A stretch of DNA of 64,000 nt from Candidatus Persebacteraceae bacterium Df01 (GTDB lineage Bacteria > Pseudomonadota > Gammaproteobacteria > Tethybacterales > Persebacteraceae), in contig JANQAO010000003.1 of NCBI GenBank assembly GCA_030386295.1, forward strand, positions 112,114-176,113, written 5' to 3'. The notes beneath the pieces were generated by a model that made no database searches, was not told the DNA's origin, and was given only the letters and a program-made list of their open reading frames with translations. Below are positions 6,481 to 12,149 of the stretch, in pieces. The position numbers and the translations under genes were made by a program. Position 1 is the stretch's first letter. Every line of letters starts with the position of its first letter.

Positions 6481-6559
6481 AACTAACGCTTGCCATCAGC
6501 CACCGTTTAACTCAGAGCGAAGCTACGAGTGAAACATTCGGCTGGATGGATTTGTTAAA
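6481..6559 (-). repeat. attC-like integron recombination site
   Basis: On the minus strand the outer boxes are TTTAACA and GTTAGTT, and the inner arms pair as CCATCCAGCC with GGCTGATGG, leaving one unpaired base, the extrahelical asymmetry expected of a folded attC. It directly follows the broken 124-codon cassette gene on the same strand, in the usual gene-then-attC order. Confidence 0.65.
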
Positions 6560-6666
6560 TAATTTACTCCTCAATGAGATTATATGGACAAACTAAAGTA
6601 GTTTTATCTTTAGGGCGATCAAAAATATCGTGTTTCTTAAACCTTAATGTAATATGCAAATAAGTC

Positions 6667-7041
6667 TTACTTAAATTTATTCAAATACTTTCTTATCTTA
6701 TTGATTTTTTGTAGGCTCATAAGCCAAAAATAAACTTCATTGTCATCTTCTTTTATAGTACCGATACCAAAAATATAGACACAAACCTGATAACTAATAA
6801 ATTTCTCTACATTATTACTACAAATAGAAGGAAATTCCAAGGGATTAATAACTGTCAGATGGCGAGTATAGTTATCTCGTCTTTGTTGGTTTAATGTAAA
6901 TGAAATAAAATCAAGAGGATCAATTATTTTTTAAAAAGAGTTTAACCAATTCGTTATGACGCATTCTTCTACCTTAGCGGATATGTAAACGTTACCTTCT
7001 GCATCGCTATTTAAAATGACAATTGTATTAAGTGTGTGCAT
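6667..7041 (-). pseudogene. unknown 124-codon cassette protein with one in-frame TAA
   Basis: An ATG at 7041 preceded by AAGGAG opens a frame that runs 36 codons to TAA (6931-6933) and then stays open in the same frame for another 87 codons to TAA at 6667-6669. The product begins MHTLNTIVILNSDAEG and ends in a lysine-rich tail; the second half includes YQVCVYIFGIG and YFWLMSLQKINK. The reading frame is otherwise undamaged, so the stop is probably recent, or a sequencing error in the T/A-rich stretch. I do not recognise the family. It is flanked by a hairpin repeat upstream and an attC-like site downstream, so it is a gene cassette. Confidence 0.6.
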
Positions 7042-7062
7042 ATGTAGTCTCCTTATACTATC

Positions 7063-7169
7063 TAATGGCGCAAGTTAAATGACATTTGAGTTTCAAGTTT
7101 AACAGAAAGTTTATTTTCGTTATTAAACTAAACGAAGATGGAATGCCTGCCGAAGGCAGGTGTCCGCTT
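7063..7169 (-). repeat. cassette leader repeat, copy A
   Basis: First of three related elements (with 8189-8295 and 12009-12110), each ending 18-22 nt before a cassette start codon. On the minus strand it holds a CCTGCC-TTCG-GGCAGG hairpin and a second hairpin with arms close to AGTTTAACA and TGTTAAACT. The ends of the larger copy (7063-7235) form an inverted repeat GCAAGTTAA / TTAACTTGC. Confidence 0.75.
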
Positions 7170-7214
7170 AAACGGTTTGTTCGTCTGCCTTGCGAGCGAA
7201 CAATACGGAAAGTA

Positions 7215-7306
7215 CCTTAACTTGCAACATTCGTCCTGCCCGCAAAGCAGTACAAATGCTCAAAACAGCAGCGCATTTATGCGTCTGACTGCTTTTACTT
7301 GTTATA
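7215..7306 (-). repeat. attC-like site of the EamA cassette
   Basis: On the minus strand it starts with TATAACAAG, overlapping the final codons of the EamA gene, and ends near GTTAAGG. Internal arms AAAGCAGT...AAATGC pair with GCATTTGTACTGCTTT. Overlap of the cassette stop codon with the first attC box is common. The R' box is not a perfect match to GTTRRRY, so the 3' limit is uncertain. Confidence 0.5.
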
Positions 7307-8170
7307 TTTATTCAACACATATATACCAGAGAGTATTAACGCCGCGCCTACATAATCCAAGATGACTAGAGGTTCGCCGACAATAAGAACAGCAATTACC
7401 AGCGCAACTACAGGCGGAAGATAAGTTACAGAGGCCGCCTTCACCGCGCCTAGCGCATCAACCAGATAGTAGTAGATGACATAAGCTAGACCTGTACCAA
7501 TAACACCCAAACCAACGACAGTTGAAGTCAATGCCCAACCGTTAGAGCTCAGCTTGCTGAAATCTTCAAGGTTCGTAGCCAAAAGCAGAAATACAGCTGC
7601 AATACCAAGCTGATAAGTTACTAGGGCTGAATTCTCTATATTAAGTGGGATTATGTACTTTTTGGCATATACAAAAGAAAGGCCTAGACTGAGTGAGCCT
7701 AAAGCCATCCAAGAAACACCTAGCAGCAAATTGTTATCCAAAGTCCCAGAAAACGGCTTGGTTATCAAAGATATACCCACTAATGCCATCAAACACCCTA
7801 TCAATTTTTCTTTGCCAAAAGACTCTTCTTCAAGAAATATAACAGCCGCAATAAATGAAAATAGTGGAATTGAGCCGCTAACTGCTCCGGCAACTCCTGA
7901 ATACAGCAATTCTGTTCCCTTCACGAAAGCAAAGAAATACACCGATGTTGCCAAGAACGACATGACCACAAAATGGTGGGTATTCGCAATGTGCTCTGCT
8001 TTGAGAGTTCTTTTATACAAAGAGTAAAACAACAGCGGCAGAAAACCAGCAACTACCCTCAACAAAACCACTTGCCCAGGTGAAATATACTTGACAGCAA
8101 TTTTCATAAACATGAAGCTTGTGCCCCAAATAACCCCTAGAGTTACAAATAATATATAAACAATTCTCAA
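7295..8170 (-). CDS. EamA-family drug/metabolite transporter (cassette gene)
   Basis: 291 residues, ten predicted membrane segments, two EamA halves; N-terminus MRIVYILFVTLGVIWGTSF and late YLPPVVALVIAVLIVGEPL are typical of the DMT superfamily of inner-membrane exporters. Substrate unknown. The start is a TTG at 8170, chosen because AAGGAG sits six bases upstream; no ATG is available near it. The gene lies between a leader repeat and an attC-like site on the same strand, a complete gene cassette. It is intact, unlike most neighbours. Confidence 0.88.
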   Translation of the reverse strand: MRIVYILFVTLGVIWGTSFMFMKIAVKYISPGQVVLLRVVAGFLPLLFYSLYKRTLKAEHIANTHHFVVMSFLATSVYFFAFVKGTELLYSGVAGAVSGSIPLFSFIAAVIFLEEESFGKEKLIGCLMALVGISLITKPFSGTLDNNLLLGVSWMALGSLSLGLSFVYAKKYIIPLNIENSALVTYQLGIAAVFLLLATNLEDFSKLSSNGWALTSTVVGLGVIGTGLAYVIYYYLVDALGAVKAASVTYLPPVVALVIAVLIVGEPLVILDYVGAALILSGIYVLNKYNK

Positions 8171-8188
8171 GTGCTCTCCTTGGAAATA

Positions 8189-8295
8189 TAATGTTGCGAG
8201 TTAAGTGGTATCTGAGTTTCAAGTTTAACAGAAAATTTATTTTCGTTGTTAAACTAAACGAAGATGGAATGCCTACCGAAGGCAGGTGTCCGCTT
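8189..8295 (-). repeat. cassette leader repeat, copy B
   Basis: Second copy of the hairpin repeat, 18 nt upstream of the EamA start. Here the main hairpin is cleanest: AGTTTAACA pairs with TGTTAAACT over nine bases and GAAAAT with ATTTTC, leaving two unpaired bases on one arm and a two-base loop. Just beyond the repeat, 8319-8325 reads GTTAGGC on the minus strand, a perfect integron R' core, so a cassette junction probably lies there. Confidence 0.75.
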
Positions 8296-8325
8296 TGCGG
8301 GCGAATAAAGCAGAAAGTGCCTAAC

Positions 8326-8563
8326 TTGATGTCAAATTATATTTGAACTAATACATATAAAGCCTGCCTAATAACCCTTATTATATATGGCGATTGCAAT
8401 TTCTACTAGTGAAATCATACCTACAAATTACGATAGAAACAGGACTTTATTTAAGCTATATGACTAACAATTTAGCACTCTCAGTTAGGTAATCCAATAT
8501 CATATCTCATTCGCATTCCTTTGAACGTCAGTGTGCCGACAGAAGCTCAAAAGTGATATTTAC
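8326..8563. other. AT-rich spacer
   Basis: No ORF or full attC could be supported between the GTTAGGC junction and the end of the PurD-like remnant. A five-base pair of GTTAG/CTAAC boxes occurs near 8468-8496, too short for a recombination site. Confidence 0.4.
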
Positions 8564-9445
8564 CTAATATACATAAATTCTTGCCTTTAACTTCTGTGGG
8601 TTGAAATAGATATGCTGCGGCTGGAAATTCATTGTGTTGGGCCAGCACTTCAATGGCTCATCAATGCCAGAACATAAACCAGTTACAAGTCTGGTAGCGA
8701 CACTGAAACAATTGCTAATCTGTAATGGAGGTTCCCAAATTTCTTCTTTAGCAATGACATTAAAAACAGTTGATAAATTGTTTGTTATGCGAGGGAAAAT
8801 AACTTCATATTCTGAATCCCCCATCCGAGTATTCACTTCAATCAAATTTAGTTTGCCTTGTTGATCTACTCACAACCCTAAATAAATTGCCCCATTAAAG
8901 ATGATTCCCATATGCCTGAGAACTCCAAGCATTGGGTCAAGAATTTCAGATCGTATCCGTCTTTTCAATTTAATAATCTCTCTTGGATGAGGAGATAAAC
9001 CCCTCATACCGTCGCAGTTTGTGCATTGATCGTCGCAATGGCTTTTTTTATAATCTTGAGCAGAAGGTAGTTGAACTACACTATATTTATTTAATAGGTA
9101 ATGGGCTGAATAATCAAAACCCTCTAGGTAGTCTTCGACAAGAAATCTGTAAGGGGGGGCATTTTGTTTTCGTAATGCCCGTAGCTGACATAATAAGTCC
9201 AGAGTAGGCTGAGATGGAGATACTTGAATGGCTCCATTACCATTCAAGGTCAACCAATTTTCACAAGGAGGAATATTTATGAACATGGACTTATTCGACC
9301 CAATATTTAAATTGCAGGATGCACGCCTAAACAAACTTGGAGATCCTTTTTCAGAGCCTAATAATTTCATAATAGGCTTTAATCGTTCAACCAAAGTATC
9401 GTTTTTGTCTAGAAACCACTCCTCCACAATACGAAAGTCATCCAA
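8564..9445 (-). pseudogene. PurD-like ATP-grasp protein, broken by in-frame TGA
   Basis: Minus-strand reading gives FLVEDYLEGFDYSAHYLL, LPSAQDYKKS, GMRGLSPHP and, after a TGA at 8870-8872, continues in the same frame with LIEVNTRMGDSEYEVIFPR. Order and spacing match the ATP-grasp core of phosphoribosylamine-glycine ligase (PurD) or a close relative. The frame stays open upstream to about 9557 but offers only a TTG start and lacks the PurD N-terminal domain. It is a 5'-truncated, nonsense-broken gene, not a working purine enzyme. It could come from a peptide-ligase-like ATP-grasp cassette rather than true PurD. Confidence 0.55.
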
Positions 9446-9556
9446 CAGTTGATGAAGTGCACTCTTAATTGCATTTGCATCTCTATGATACCAAGCTGCA
9501 GCACATTGGATTTGGATAGGTGATTTAGTATCACTGATTTGTTGTAAACGACTAGT

Positions 9557-9994
9557 TTATCAATATATTGACATGCAAAAATCTTTTGATGTGCTAGACC
9601 TCATTTTATCTCGCACCGGTACGGTGATTGTCTTCGACTTTTTTTAAGCGAGATGGAGTAAAAGGGAAATCTCATTTGGGCGGTGGACACTCAATAGGTG
9701 AATTTTACGAAACTATTGAGAAAAATGGATTTAAAATTCATAAAGATTTGGATGTTACATCTAAAGTAAGTCCGAACCTTCGACTTGTAAACGAAATACT
9801 GACGGATCGTATTTTACCTTTTATTGAAACCTTGGATCAATTTCTTTCAAAAAGACACAAAACACATTTAAGTTTTTTAATTTATTTTCAGTAAAAAATT
9901 GAAAAAACTTAAGTTTAAATACTCTTTAAAGCGAAACCATGAGTCTTTTGAGAAGTTTAAAACCTACAGACTCGTTGTCATTAAAAAATCCTAA
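9557..9994 (+). pseudogene. SAM-dependent methyltransferase remnant (C-terminal part)
   Basis: Joining three frames gives a coherent methyltransferase tail: QYIDMQKSFDVLDLIL, TVIVFDFF, KRDGVKGKSHLGGGH, then ESFEKFKTYRLVVIKKS. The first break is repaired by removing one T from the T7 run at 9639-9645, the second by removing one T near 9886-9890. The N-terminal SAM-binding half is absent. The stop codon overlaps the first box of the next attC-like site, so this was a plus-strand cassette. Confidence 0.55.
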
Positions 9995-10165
9995 CAAAAC
10001 ACTCTGGCAGACTACTATGCCACCTCTAAGCTTGACTCTTCATATAGCACTTTTCGTTGCACAAGCACTTAATCTGACTTTCACTGCGTTGATTGTTTTG
10101 TGCATTTCAGCTACACTAACACAAAACAATCAGCTCCGTTTTGGCAACTTAGCCGAGTGTTAGTT
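9989..10165 (+). repeat. long attC-like site behind methyltransferase remnant
   Basis: Outer boxes TCCTAAC and GTTAGTT; outer arms CTAACA..ACACTC pair with GAGTGTTAG. An internal GCACAA/TTGTGC pair supports a long folded site of about 177 bp. A shorter alternative (about 10112-10165, ACTAACAC with GTGTTAGT) is nested in it. Confidence 0.5.
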
Positions 10166-10182
10166 CAAAAGGAAGTTAGATA

Positions 10183-10662
10183 GTGGAAATACGACAATAT
10201 AGAGAATCTGATTTAGATTCTGTCCTTGAGTCCTGGGAAGTTGCGACTCGTTTAGCTCACGAATTTATGACTGATGAGTTCATCGCGCAGGAACGAAAAA
10301 ATGTAGCTGAAATGTATATACCAAATACAGATACATGGGTTGCAGAGCTTGATGGTGAAGTAAAGGGCTTTATTTCACTAATGAGTAATGAGATCGGCGC
10401 GATTTTTCTTCAGCCAAATTATCATGGTAAAGGTATTGGTAAAGCGCTCATGGATAAGGCTCAATTTCTTCACGGAGATTTAGAAGTTGAGGTTTTCAAA
10501 GAAAACGCTATTGGGCGTAATTTTTATTCAAAATATGGCTTTGAATATCTAGAAGAAAAGCATCATGAACCAACCGGACAACAATTATTGCGCCTGAAAT
10601 TTACAGCTAACAAATCAAGTAATCGGGACGCCGTAACCGGCGCTCACTTCTTGCGACGTTAG
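10183..10662 (+). CDS. GNAT acetyltransferase (cassette gene)
   Basis: About 159 residues beginning VEIRQYRESDLDSV from a GTG start; AAAGGAAG lies eight bases upstream. The acetyl-CoA-binding motif A reads NYHGKGIGKALM and the C-terminal motif B region NFYSKYGFEYLEE, typical of small YjaB-like GNAT enzymes. The substrate is unknown. The last 17 or so residues are encoded by the attC-like site itself, a common consequence of cassette structure, so the folded domain ends near LRLKFTA. The gene is intact and on the plus strand, opposite to the EamA and VOC cassettes. Confidence 0.85.
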   Translation: MEIRQYRESDLDSVLESWEVATRLAHEFMTDEFIAQERKNVAEMYIPNTDTWVAELDGEVKGFISLMSNEIGAIFLQPNYHGKGIGKALMDKAQFLHGDLEVEVFKENAIGRNFYSKYGFEYLEEKHHEPTGQQLLRLKFTANKSSNRDAVTGAHFLRR

Positions 10663-10664
10663 AT
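10605..10664 (+). repeat. attC-like site of the GNAT cassette
   Basis: About 60 bp with R'' AGCTAAC and a perfect R' GTTAGAT (GTTRRRY). Inner arms CAAGTAATCGGGACGCCG and CGGCGCTCACTTCTTG pair with unpaired bases on one arm. It overlaps the 3' end of the GNAT frame. Confidence 0.7.
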
Positions 10665-11111
10665 TCATACCTATGTCATTAATAATTAACCATTACTCAG
10701 AAGATTATAAATATCTTTCAAGTTTAATATGGTAAATTTTATAGCTTAGCACAGCTGTATTTCTTTCATCTATTGTGGTTGTTGCCCTTGTGGCAGGAAA
10801 TTTTGATAAATAATTAATTTTAAAGTAGATAGCCATATATTAACTAGAATTGTTTTAATCATAAGTTGATTAACAATTTTTTATTTTTTACTTCTGAAAC
10901 ACTTGTGACTTATTTTGTAACAGTCCAAGGACTTACATTCCTCTATATTTGTTTTTCAGGTTAGATGAGTTCTAATAATAACTTTTGCTTAATTTCTTTA
11001 TATTTGTGATTTTTTTTATAGGGAATATCAAATAATAACTAATATGCAAAAGAATGCTAAAAATAATTAAATCAAACACCAAGATATATTTTAATGATAA
11101 AGCGTAAATTT
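10665..11111. other. AT-rich spacer without recognisable genes
   Basis: About 450 bases, strongly AT-rich, with frequent stops in all frames. I see no gene, attC or leader repeat here. Confidence 0.5.
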
Positions 11112-11424
11112 ATGAAAGCCGTAATTACATCAGACTACAGTTCTGTTGACGTATTAGAGGTTAAAGACATTGATAAACTAGAAATTAGCGATAAAGAAAT
11201 TTTAATTCGTATCCATGCTTGTTCAGTGAACCTGATTGATTGGAAAATATAATTGAAAATAGTGAGTGGCAAAAAACCTCCAAAAATTCTTAGCGGAGAC
11301 TTCTCTAGTATTGTAGATAAAACAGGCTCAGAAATTAATATTTAATATAGGCGATGAGAGGTGGGGACATGTTAATGCACTAAAAGGCGGCTCATATACC
11401 GAATATATAAAAGTAAATATTGAA
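11112..11424 (+). pseudogene. MDR-superfamily reductase remnant
   Basis: From ATG 11112 the translation MKAVITSDYSSVDVLEVKD and LIRIHACSVNLIDWKI matches the start of NAD(P)H quinone-reductase-like MDR proteins. A TAA follows DWKI, then GKKPPKILSGDFSSIVDK continues in frame, then a one-base shift near 11340 leads to FNIGDERWGHVNALKGGSY. Only about the first third of the family length remains before it runs into integrase-like sequence. Confidence 0.65.
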
Positions 11425-11556
11425 CAATTTTTATCTTATCTTGCTGTAGAGCGTCATGTATCTCCATCTACTCAAAATCAACCATTAATTCCTTAATCTT
11501 TCTTTGCGAGCAGGTATTAAATATTTCCTTGCAGATGCTCAAATAATTTCTGTAAG
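11425..11556 (+). pseudogene. fossil of an integron integrase (IntI)
   Basis: Plus-strand translation reads QFLSYLAVERHVSPSTQNQ, and after one-base shifts INSLIFLCEQVLNISL and LADAQIISVR. The STQNQ motif followed by an LxFL..VL helix is characteristic of the N-terminal SAM-like domain of IntI integrases (family knowledge), about residues 40-95. Only this piece survives; no catalytic RHRY region is in the window. It joins the MDR remnant upstream and runs straight into an attC-like site downstream. Confidence 0.6.
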
Positions 11557-11616
11557 AGTTAACAACCAAACTCAGCGGCCTGCCGATTGCGGGTCCGTTG
11601 GAATGTTTTGTTAGCA
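11557..11616 (-). repeat. attC-like site of the VOC cassette
   Basis: About 60 bp, following the VOC stop by ten bases on the minus strand. Outer arms GCTAACAAAAC and GTTTGGTTGTTAAC; inner arms CCAACGGACC and GGCCGCTGAG pair with one extrahelical base, the feature used by IntI to choose the strand. R boxes are imperfect. Confidence 0.7.
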
Positions 11617-11625
11617 ATAATTGGC

Positions 11626-11988
11626 TCAACTATGACAAACTGCCTCAATATTGTGGCCATCTGGGTCAATAACAAACGCACCGTAATAATTAGGATGGTA
11701 AATTTCTCTTACTCCTGGCTTTCCGTTATCGGTTGCGCCAGCAGATAATGCGGCTTCATAAAAAGCATCTACTTGACTACGTGTTTCAGCCAAAAAAGCA
11801 ACGTGCATGCGTTTGTGTGCTTGCCCATCAGGACCAAACCAAAATTCAGCTTTTCCTTTTTTTCCGAATCCAGCCCAGCCCTGTTCTTCCATAACTAATT
11901 CTATTCCGAGGGGGGATAAACTCTTCGTATAGAAATTTTTACTTTTTTCGTAATCAGAAATTACAAAACCAATATGGTCAATTATCAT
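11626..11988 (-). CDS. VOC (glyoxalase/bleomycin-resistance-fold) protein, cassette gene
   Basis: 120 residues with the paired beta-alpha-beta-beta-beta units of the vicinal oxygen chelate fold: starts MIIDHIGFVISDYEKSKNFY, middle HVAFLAETRSQVDAFYEA, end AFVIDPDGHNIEAVCH. Metal-ligand positions His5, His near 67 and Glu near 115 are present, so catalytic activity is plausible; the substrate is unknown. ATG start at 11988 with AAGGA nine bases upstream. A leader repeat lies 20 nt upstream and an attC-like site ten nt downstream, making a complete, apparently functional cassette. Confidence 0.88.
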   Translation of the reverse strand: MIIDHIGFVISDYEKSKNFYTKSLSPLGIELVMEEQGWAGFGKKGKAEFWFGPDGQAHKRMHVAFLAETRSQVDAFYEAALSAGATDNGKPGVREIYHPNYYGAFVIDPDGHNIEAVCHS

Positions 11989-12008
11989 ATTTTTTCCTTA
12001 TAGATTTC

Positions 12009-12110
12009 TAATGTTGGGAGTTAAGTGGCATCCGAGTTTTTAGTTTAACAGAAAACTTGTTTTTGTTGTTAAGCTAAACGAAGACAGCAGGTCTGTCAAA
12101 GCAGATATCG
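12009..12110 (-). repeat. cassette leader repeat, copy C
   Basis: Third and most diverged copy, 20 nt upstream of the VOC start. The hairpin arms are AGCTTAACA and TGTTAAACT; the loop-closing pair has changed from T:A (copy B) to C:G on both arms, a compensatory change. Upstream on the same strand, TATAACAAGC (12133-12142) overlaps the last codons of the acyltransferase remnant, as the first box of an attC would. Confidence 0.7.
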
Positions 12111-12149
12111 TTTTGTGTGTGCTTTACCTTTGCTTGTTATATTCTATTA

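Follow-up and report, generated by a model that had tools for sequence, protein, structure and literature searches.

Three copies of a hairpin-forming repeat stand shortly before start codons in the 64,000-nucleotide stretch of DNA analysed here (the window), and their placement raises the question of whether they regulate the genes behind them or owe their position to something else. The copies, all on the minus strand, are in register over 110 nt (A, 7060-7169; B, 8186-8295; C, 12006-12115). BLAST inside the window gave 90% identity between A and B over 110 nt (E 7.5e-39), 88% between B and C over 76 nt (E 4e-23) and 79% between A and C over 78 nt (E 6e-15), with a single 18-nt chance match as the only other result at E<0.1, and neither BLAST nor the covariance model found a fourth copy in the host genome of 1.53 Mb. 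The repeat ends at 7063, 8189 and 12009 lie 18-21 nt before the minus-strand start codons at 7041 (ATG), 8170 (TTG) and 11988 (ATG), and the repeat alignment and BLAST thereby bear out the three copies and the placement reported in a first-pass annotation of this DNA. It had also seen a cassette gene behind each copy; those after B and C are intact, but the ORF after A contains an in-frame stop. As argued below, the repeats are most probably decayed copies of one long (about 126-137 nt), VCR-like attC family within what is left of an integron cassette array (Table 1).

Table 1 Features of the degraded cassette array in the window.
Feature	Position	Strand	Remarks
Ordinary attC-like site ending the cassette after copy A	6505-6560	-	Direct sequence reading; pattern scans
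Decayed ORF after copy A	6680-7041	-	One in-frame stop
Copy A, probable decayed long attC	7060-7185	-	R″ GACGAAC 7185-7179, L″ GTTTAAGC, branched centre, L′ ATTTAAC, R′ ATTAGAT 7066-7060; covariance model 128.9 bits
Inverted copy of attC right half (CCTTAACTTGCAACATTCG)	7215-7233	+	Before left box of copy A; pairs with right half of copy A
Complete short attC of the DMT-transporter cassette	7250-7306	-	Resembles a plasmid-borne Pseudoalteromonas attC; R′ degenerated to ATTTGT
EamA/DMT-family transporter, cassette gene after copy B, intact	7295-8170	-	PF00892, E 3.4e-38
Copy B, probable decayed long attC	8186-8347	-	Right half intact except ATT for GTT, left half eroded; covariance model 126.7 bits
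Probable attC before GNAT cassette	10114-10165	+	Direct reading, CACTAAC...GTTAGTT
Ordinary attC-like site after GNAT acetyltransferase gene (10183-10662, +)	10606-10664	+	Direct sequence reading
Integron-integrase (IntI) remnant	11410-11574	+	VNIEQFLSYLAVERHVSPSTQNQ, then stops
Ordinary attC-like site after glyoxalase gene	11557-11616	-	Direct sequence reading; fuzzy match
Glyoxalase/VOC protein, cassette gene after copy C, intact	11626-11988	-	PF00903, E 9.6e-11
Copy C, probable decayed long attC	12006-12142	-	Different left half, starts ATATAAC; covariance model 117.8 bits

Covariance models located three relatives of the repeat, each in a different genome, and all three genomes belong to a single further family of gammaproteobacteria. 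A first model, built from A, B and C and run on 369 genomes of the class, gave a full-length match of 43 bits (L017, in genome G326); on 192 relatives of G326 it gave another, also of 43 bits (L021, in G389). A second model, comprising A, B, C, L017 and L021 and applied to 83 genomes of the order, recovered L036 in G384 (39 bits, E 4e-5); it gave nothing further in the 369 genomes of the class or in 398 of the phylum. On these searches the repeat family, known from the host and that one other family, appears lineage-restricted. Two weak matches, L022 and L023, were lost under the second model, and a short one, L018, had no similarity outside the hairpin. An exact-pattern scan for the repeat gave no match in viral contigs and three in genome contigs (Bacteroidota) that are AT-rich chance hits with no similarity beyond the pattern, while BLAST against plasmids and phages found the short attC of the DMT cassette only, not the repeat.

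The orientation to the next gene is identical in all six copies, of which five lie just before a gene start and L021 lies before a decayed gene. L021 sits within an integron array that contains about a dozen attC-like sites of the ordinary kind, and the preceding dioxygenase cassette gene has a stop codon that overlaps the left core of L021. The window copies and L021 occupy cassette junctions within cassette arrays. An ordinary attC-like site follows L017 1.5 kb downstream, and L036 precedes a nitroreductase-like gene, although a surrounding attC array is not proven there. When the genus of G384 was examined for an empty site, G418 proved to have other genes behind the permease, with neither the nitroreductase nor the repeat, so that the neighbourhood has been rearranged. 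Elsewhere in these genomes, a HaeIII-like restriction endonuclease and a C5 cytosine methylase are among the cassette genes of the G389 array (L026, 6705-8665), and repeated scan matches in L025 (G326:C1:1-15000) reveal numerous tandem repeats, each about 290-294 bp long and nearly identical to the others.

At its right end each of the six copies has the layout of an attC right half, L′-spacer-R′, reading CATTTAAC-TTGCGCC-ATTAGAT in A, CACTTAAC-TCGCAAC-ATTATAT in B, CACTTAAC-TCCCAAC-ATTAGAA in C, AGTTTAAC-TCGTACC-GTTATGT in L017, CGTTTGAC-TGCCTTT-GTTGTGT in L021 and AATTTAAC-TTGCTT-GTTATAT in L036. Across the 64-kb window the pattern YTTAACTN4-6RTTA occurs only at the three copies, with 0.83 occurrences expected. 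The left half is more variable. Compared with the R″ consensus RYYYAAC, L017 matches at 7/7 positions (GTCTAAC), C and L021 at 6/7 (ATATAAC and GTATAAC) and A at 5/7 (GACGAAC), and B and L036 have no AAC. Pairing of L″ with L′ around an extrahelical base is complete in L017 (GTT(G)AAAC with GTTTAAC, 7/7), reaches 6/7 in A and 5/7 in C, and was not found in B. The left half of L017, GTCTAAC-AAGGC-GTTGAAAC, completes a 129-nt attC with one extrahelical G, whose inner boxes (GTCTAAC-AAGGC-GTT(G)AAAC ... GTTTAAC-TCGTACC-GTTATGT) are paired at 6/7 and 7/7 positions. From box to box A, C and L017 measure 126-137 nt, inside the attC range of 57-141 nt; attC sites have extrahelical bases and an unpaired spacer, the long ones have a branched centre, and some have low fold probabilities (PMC5371416).

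Several features speak against the attC reading. Each relative genome has one copy, not a homogeneous attC set as with the VCRs, and B lacks the left core. Moreover, relative to the R′ consensus GTTRRRY the cleavage triplet is ATT in A, B and C, and GTT in L017, L021 and L036. Lacking the GTT triplet, A, B and C are classed as attC relics and not as working sites, and since the host genome also has no integron integrase above the TIGR02249 cut-off, the window copies are probably inactive, as judged from their sequence. The inverted left arm of copy A reads AAT, matching the ATT triplet, and instead of being dead sites the copies may have last been moved by an integrase tolerating ATT.

The first-pass annotation had proposed that the structure is under selection, pointing to a compensatory T:A to C:G change between B and C. 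The change is real, but it is located at the hairpin apex round a 2-nt loop and is weak alone, and copy C has lost pairing at another stem pair on the minus strand. Solid covariation emerges only when the relatives from other genomes are added, not from A-C alone. In the alignment of A, B, C, L017 and L021, both-side changes are present in 10 of the 29 pairs, as against a mean of 3.4 in shuffles, none of 500 of which reaches 10, and the two hairpins within the conserved part are preserved in 87.6% of cells. Sliding the pairing partners destroys the signal, although these slid controls are biased towards the structure, which had itself been obtained from this alignment. Copies lying away from cassette starts and a lack of covariation had been named as evidence against the earlier interpretation, and neither was encountered. 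Conservation of the hairpins would be expected of an attC, because it is recognised as a folded single strand. In L017 the recombinogenic fold is favoured 2400-fold on the bottom strand over the top (1.5e-3 vs 6.2e-7), a preference that fits the strand choice of attC sites (PMC5371416); it is 6-fold in A and absent in C and L036. The poor pairing of the inner boxes in A and C (bottom-strand pfold 4e-8 and 2e-7, respectively) again counts against an attC.

The relatives also bear on a simpler explanation, that the copies are duplicates of one intergenic stretch made by homologous recombination and have no special function. While the close identity of A and B, only 1.1 kb apart, would suit such an origin, it is disfavoured by homologues with covarying stems in three genomes of another family and by similarity that ends at the R′ core, and we regard it as very unlikely.

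The genes around the repeats are those of a degraded cassette array at 6.5-13 kb, flanked by a proline dehydrogenase (PutA-type) gene on one side and the gene for a DEAD-box helicase on the other. It contains four ordinary attC-like sites, the short one of the DMT cassette included, and one further probable site. Over 53 nt, the short site at 7250-7306 shares 88.7% identity with a canonical attC, 57 nt long, from a cassette on a Pseudoalteromonas plasmid; the DMT cassette thus owns a complete attC, and copy A does not form its right half. The IntI remnant matches TIGR02249 with 21 bits over model positions 43-97 and contains 3 stops; over 23 aa it is 70% identical to proteins annotated as integron integrase, and a PDB search with its peptide gave no match. 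In the window at 11060-11574 the IntI fragment is fused in frame behind a decayed alcohol-dehydrogenase-like ORF and then runs into stops, and gene decay is general in the array, where an ATP-grasp-like gene (8564-9445) has one in-frame stop near 8867. The GNAT cassette (10114-10664) is on the plus strand and the other cassettes are on the minus strand, which indicates that the array has been inverted or rearranged. The possibility raised earlier that the repeat is the right half of a long VCR-like attC is thus upheld by the L′-R′ boxes of six out of six copies, the cassette-array context, the integrase remnant and the covariation.

Such an origin would also account for the placement of the repeats. 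An attC closes the preceding cassette, and IntI would cut G/TT of the right core, after which TTRRRY, the leader of the next cassette and its start codon would come at once. A cut at the right core would explain the constant position, the single orientation, the close start codon and the abrupt end of similarity at that point. The distance from core to start is 15-18 nt in the window, 45 nt in L036, 75 nt in L017 and about 90-150 nt in L021, and in the G389 array ordinary attC-like sites are followed by leaders of 12, 14, 40, 42 and 87 nt, which makes the spacing in the window ordinary. The start-codon spacing is a cassette leader length, the usual geometry of a cassette junction. The other two options of the first-pass annotation, a transcribed 5′ leader or a promoter module regulating the cassette gene behind the repeat, could draw on the position before start codons, the shared orientation and the covarying stems, as well as on gene-less cassettes, which often drive the next cassette (PMC11014356, PMC6557892). 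However, the downstream genes are mutually unrelated, and the distance is not kept in the other genomes, where it is 45 nt or more. In addition, no Rfam family matches the repeat, and the gene strand of the repeats shows no sigma-70-like site, even if promoters of gene-less cassettes are reportedly not predictable in silico (PMC11014356). A promoter or leader role is therefore not supported and appears unlikely.

A further element, the inverted half-site in front of copy A, is shared with L017. The arms of copy A form 13 pairs, a value matched by 1 of 100 shuffles, and the homology of A and L017 extends into the inverted part (4/300 shuffles as high). In L017 an 18-bp uninterrupted stem closes three hairpins, with fold z-scores of -7.6 and -9.2; this long outer stem has neither an unpaired central spacer nor an extrahelical base, contrary to an attC. 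Reading L017 as a single outer palindrome was dropped in favour of the inner attC after its extrahelical base was seen. The continuous terminal stem and strong fold of L017, together with the arm pairs of A, could alternatively denote a MITE, a small transposon-derived element with terminal inverted repeats (TAAYGKTGCRAGTTAA) inserted into cassette junctions. The uniform orientation of all six copies and their common end at a cassette junction are, however, at odds with a MITE, the terminal inverted repeat is present in A, L017 and partly B but absent in C and L021, and neither a target duplication nor additional copies in the genomes were seen, so that such an origin is quite improbable.

Returning to the attC reading, A and L017 both lie about 20 nt behind the core of the previous site and for that reason look like gene-less cassettes consisting of almost only an attC. 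By its sequence, 7060-7233 may be part of one such cassette, with an attC bearing an inverted extra right half. In L017 the near-perfect 180-nt palindromic attC-like element (1505-1720) has a further 32-nt GTTAG...CTAAC hairpin in front, and the ORF beside it (1857-2168) resembles a REP-associated transposase by eye. It is conceivable, if doubtful, that these copies represent a gene-less mini-cassette family in which an inverted second right half has created the near-perfect palindrome of L017, recombinable on either strand, moving before cassette genes and perhaps supplying a promoter. The palindromic variant stands out as an anomaly within an otherwise ordinary attC kind, and would make it possible to study the behaviour of an attC that has neither a spacer nor extrahelical bases.

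The repeats would represent a long VCR-like attC family outside Vibrio, common to two families of small-genome gammaproteobacteria and still traceable after the death of its integrase, and they illustrate that hairpins can precede cassette genes at a constant spacing without having to be regulators. Like the Vibrio cholerae repeats (VCRs), which are the long attC sites found in the superintegron of Vibrio, they have a length of 120-140 nt, a branched centre and an L′/R′ right half and lie between cassettes, but their sequence differs, they do not recur homogeneously through an array in the relative genomes, the window copies have lost GTT, and A and L017 possess the outer inverted half. With the short attC sites (59-base elements) of class 1 and Pseudoalteromonas cassettes they share the box order R″-L″-L′-R′, and a site of the Pseudoalteromonas type adjoins copy A, whereas those sites are 57-60 nt long and have a tiny loop in place of the branched centre. 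Gene-less integron cassettes with promoter activity are known from Vibrio and Treponema (PMC11014356, PMC6557892), and A and L017 resemble them in seemingly lacking a gene and standing directly upstream of a cassette gene, although the repeat family is almost only attC, with no predicted promoter. The repeats are accordingly a new, lineage-restricted member of the known attC kind and not a new regulator.
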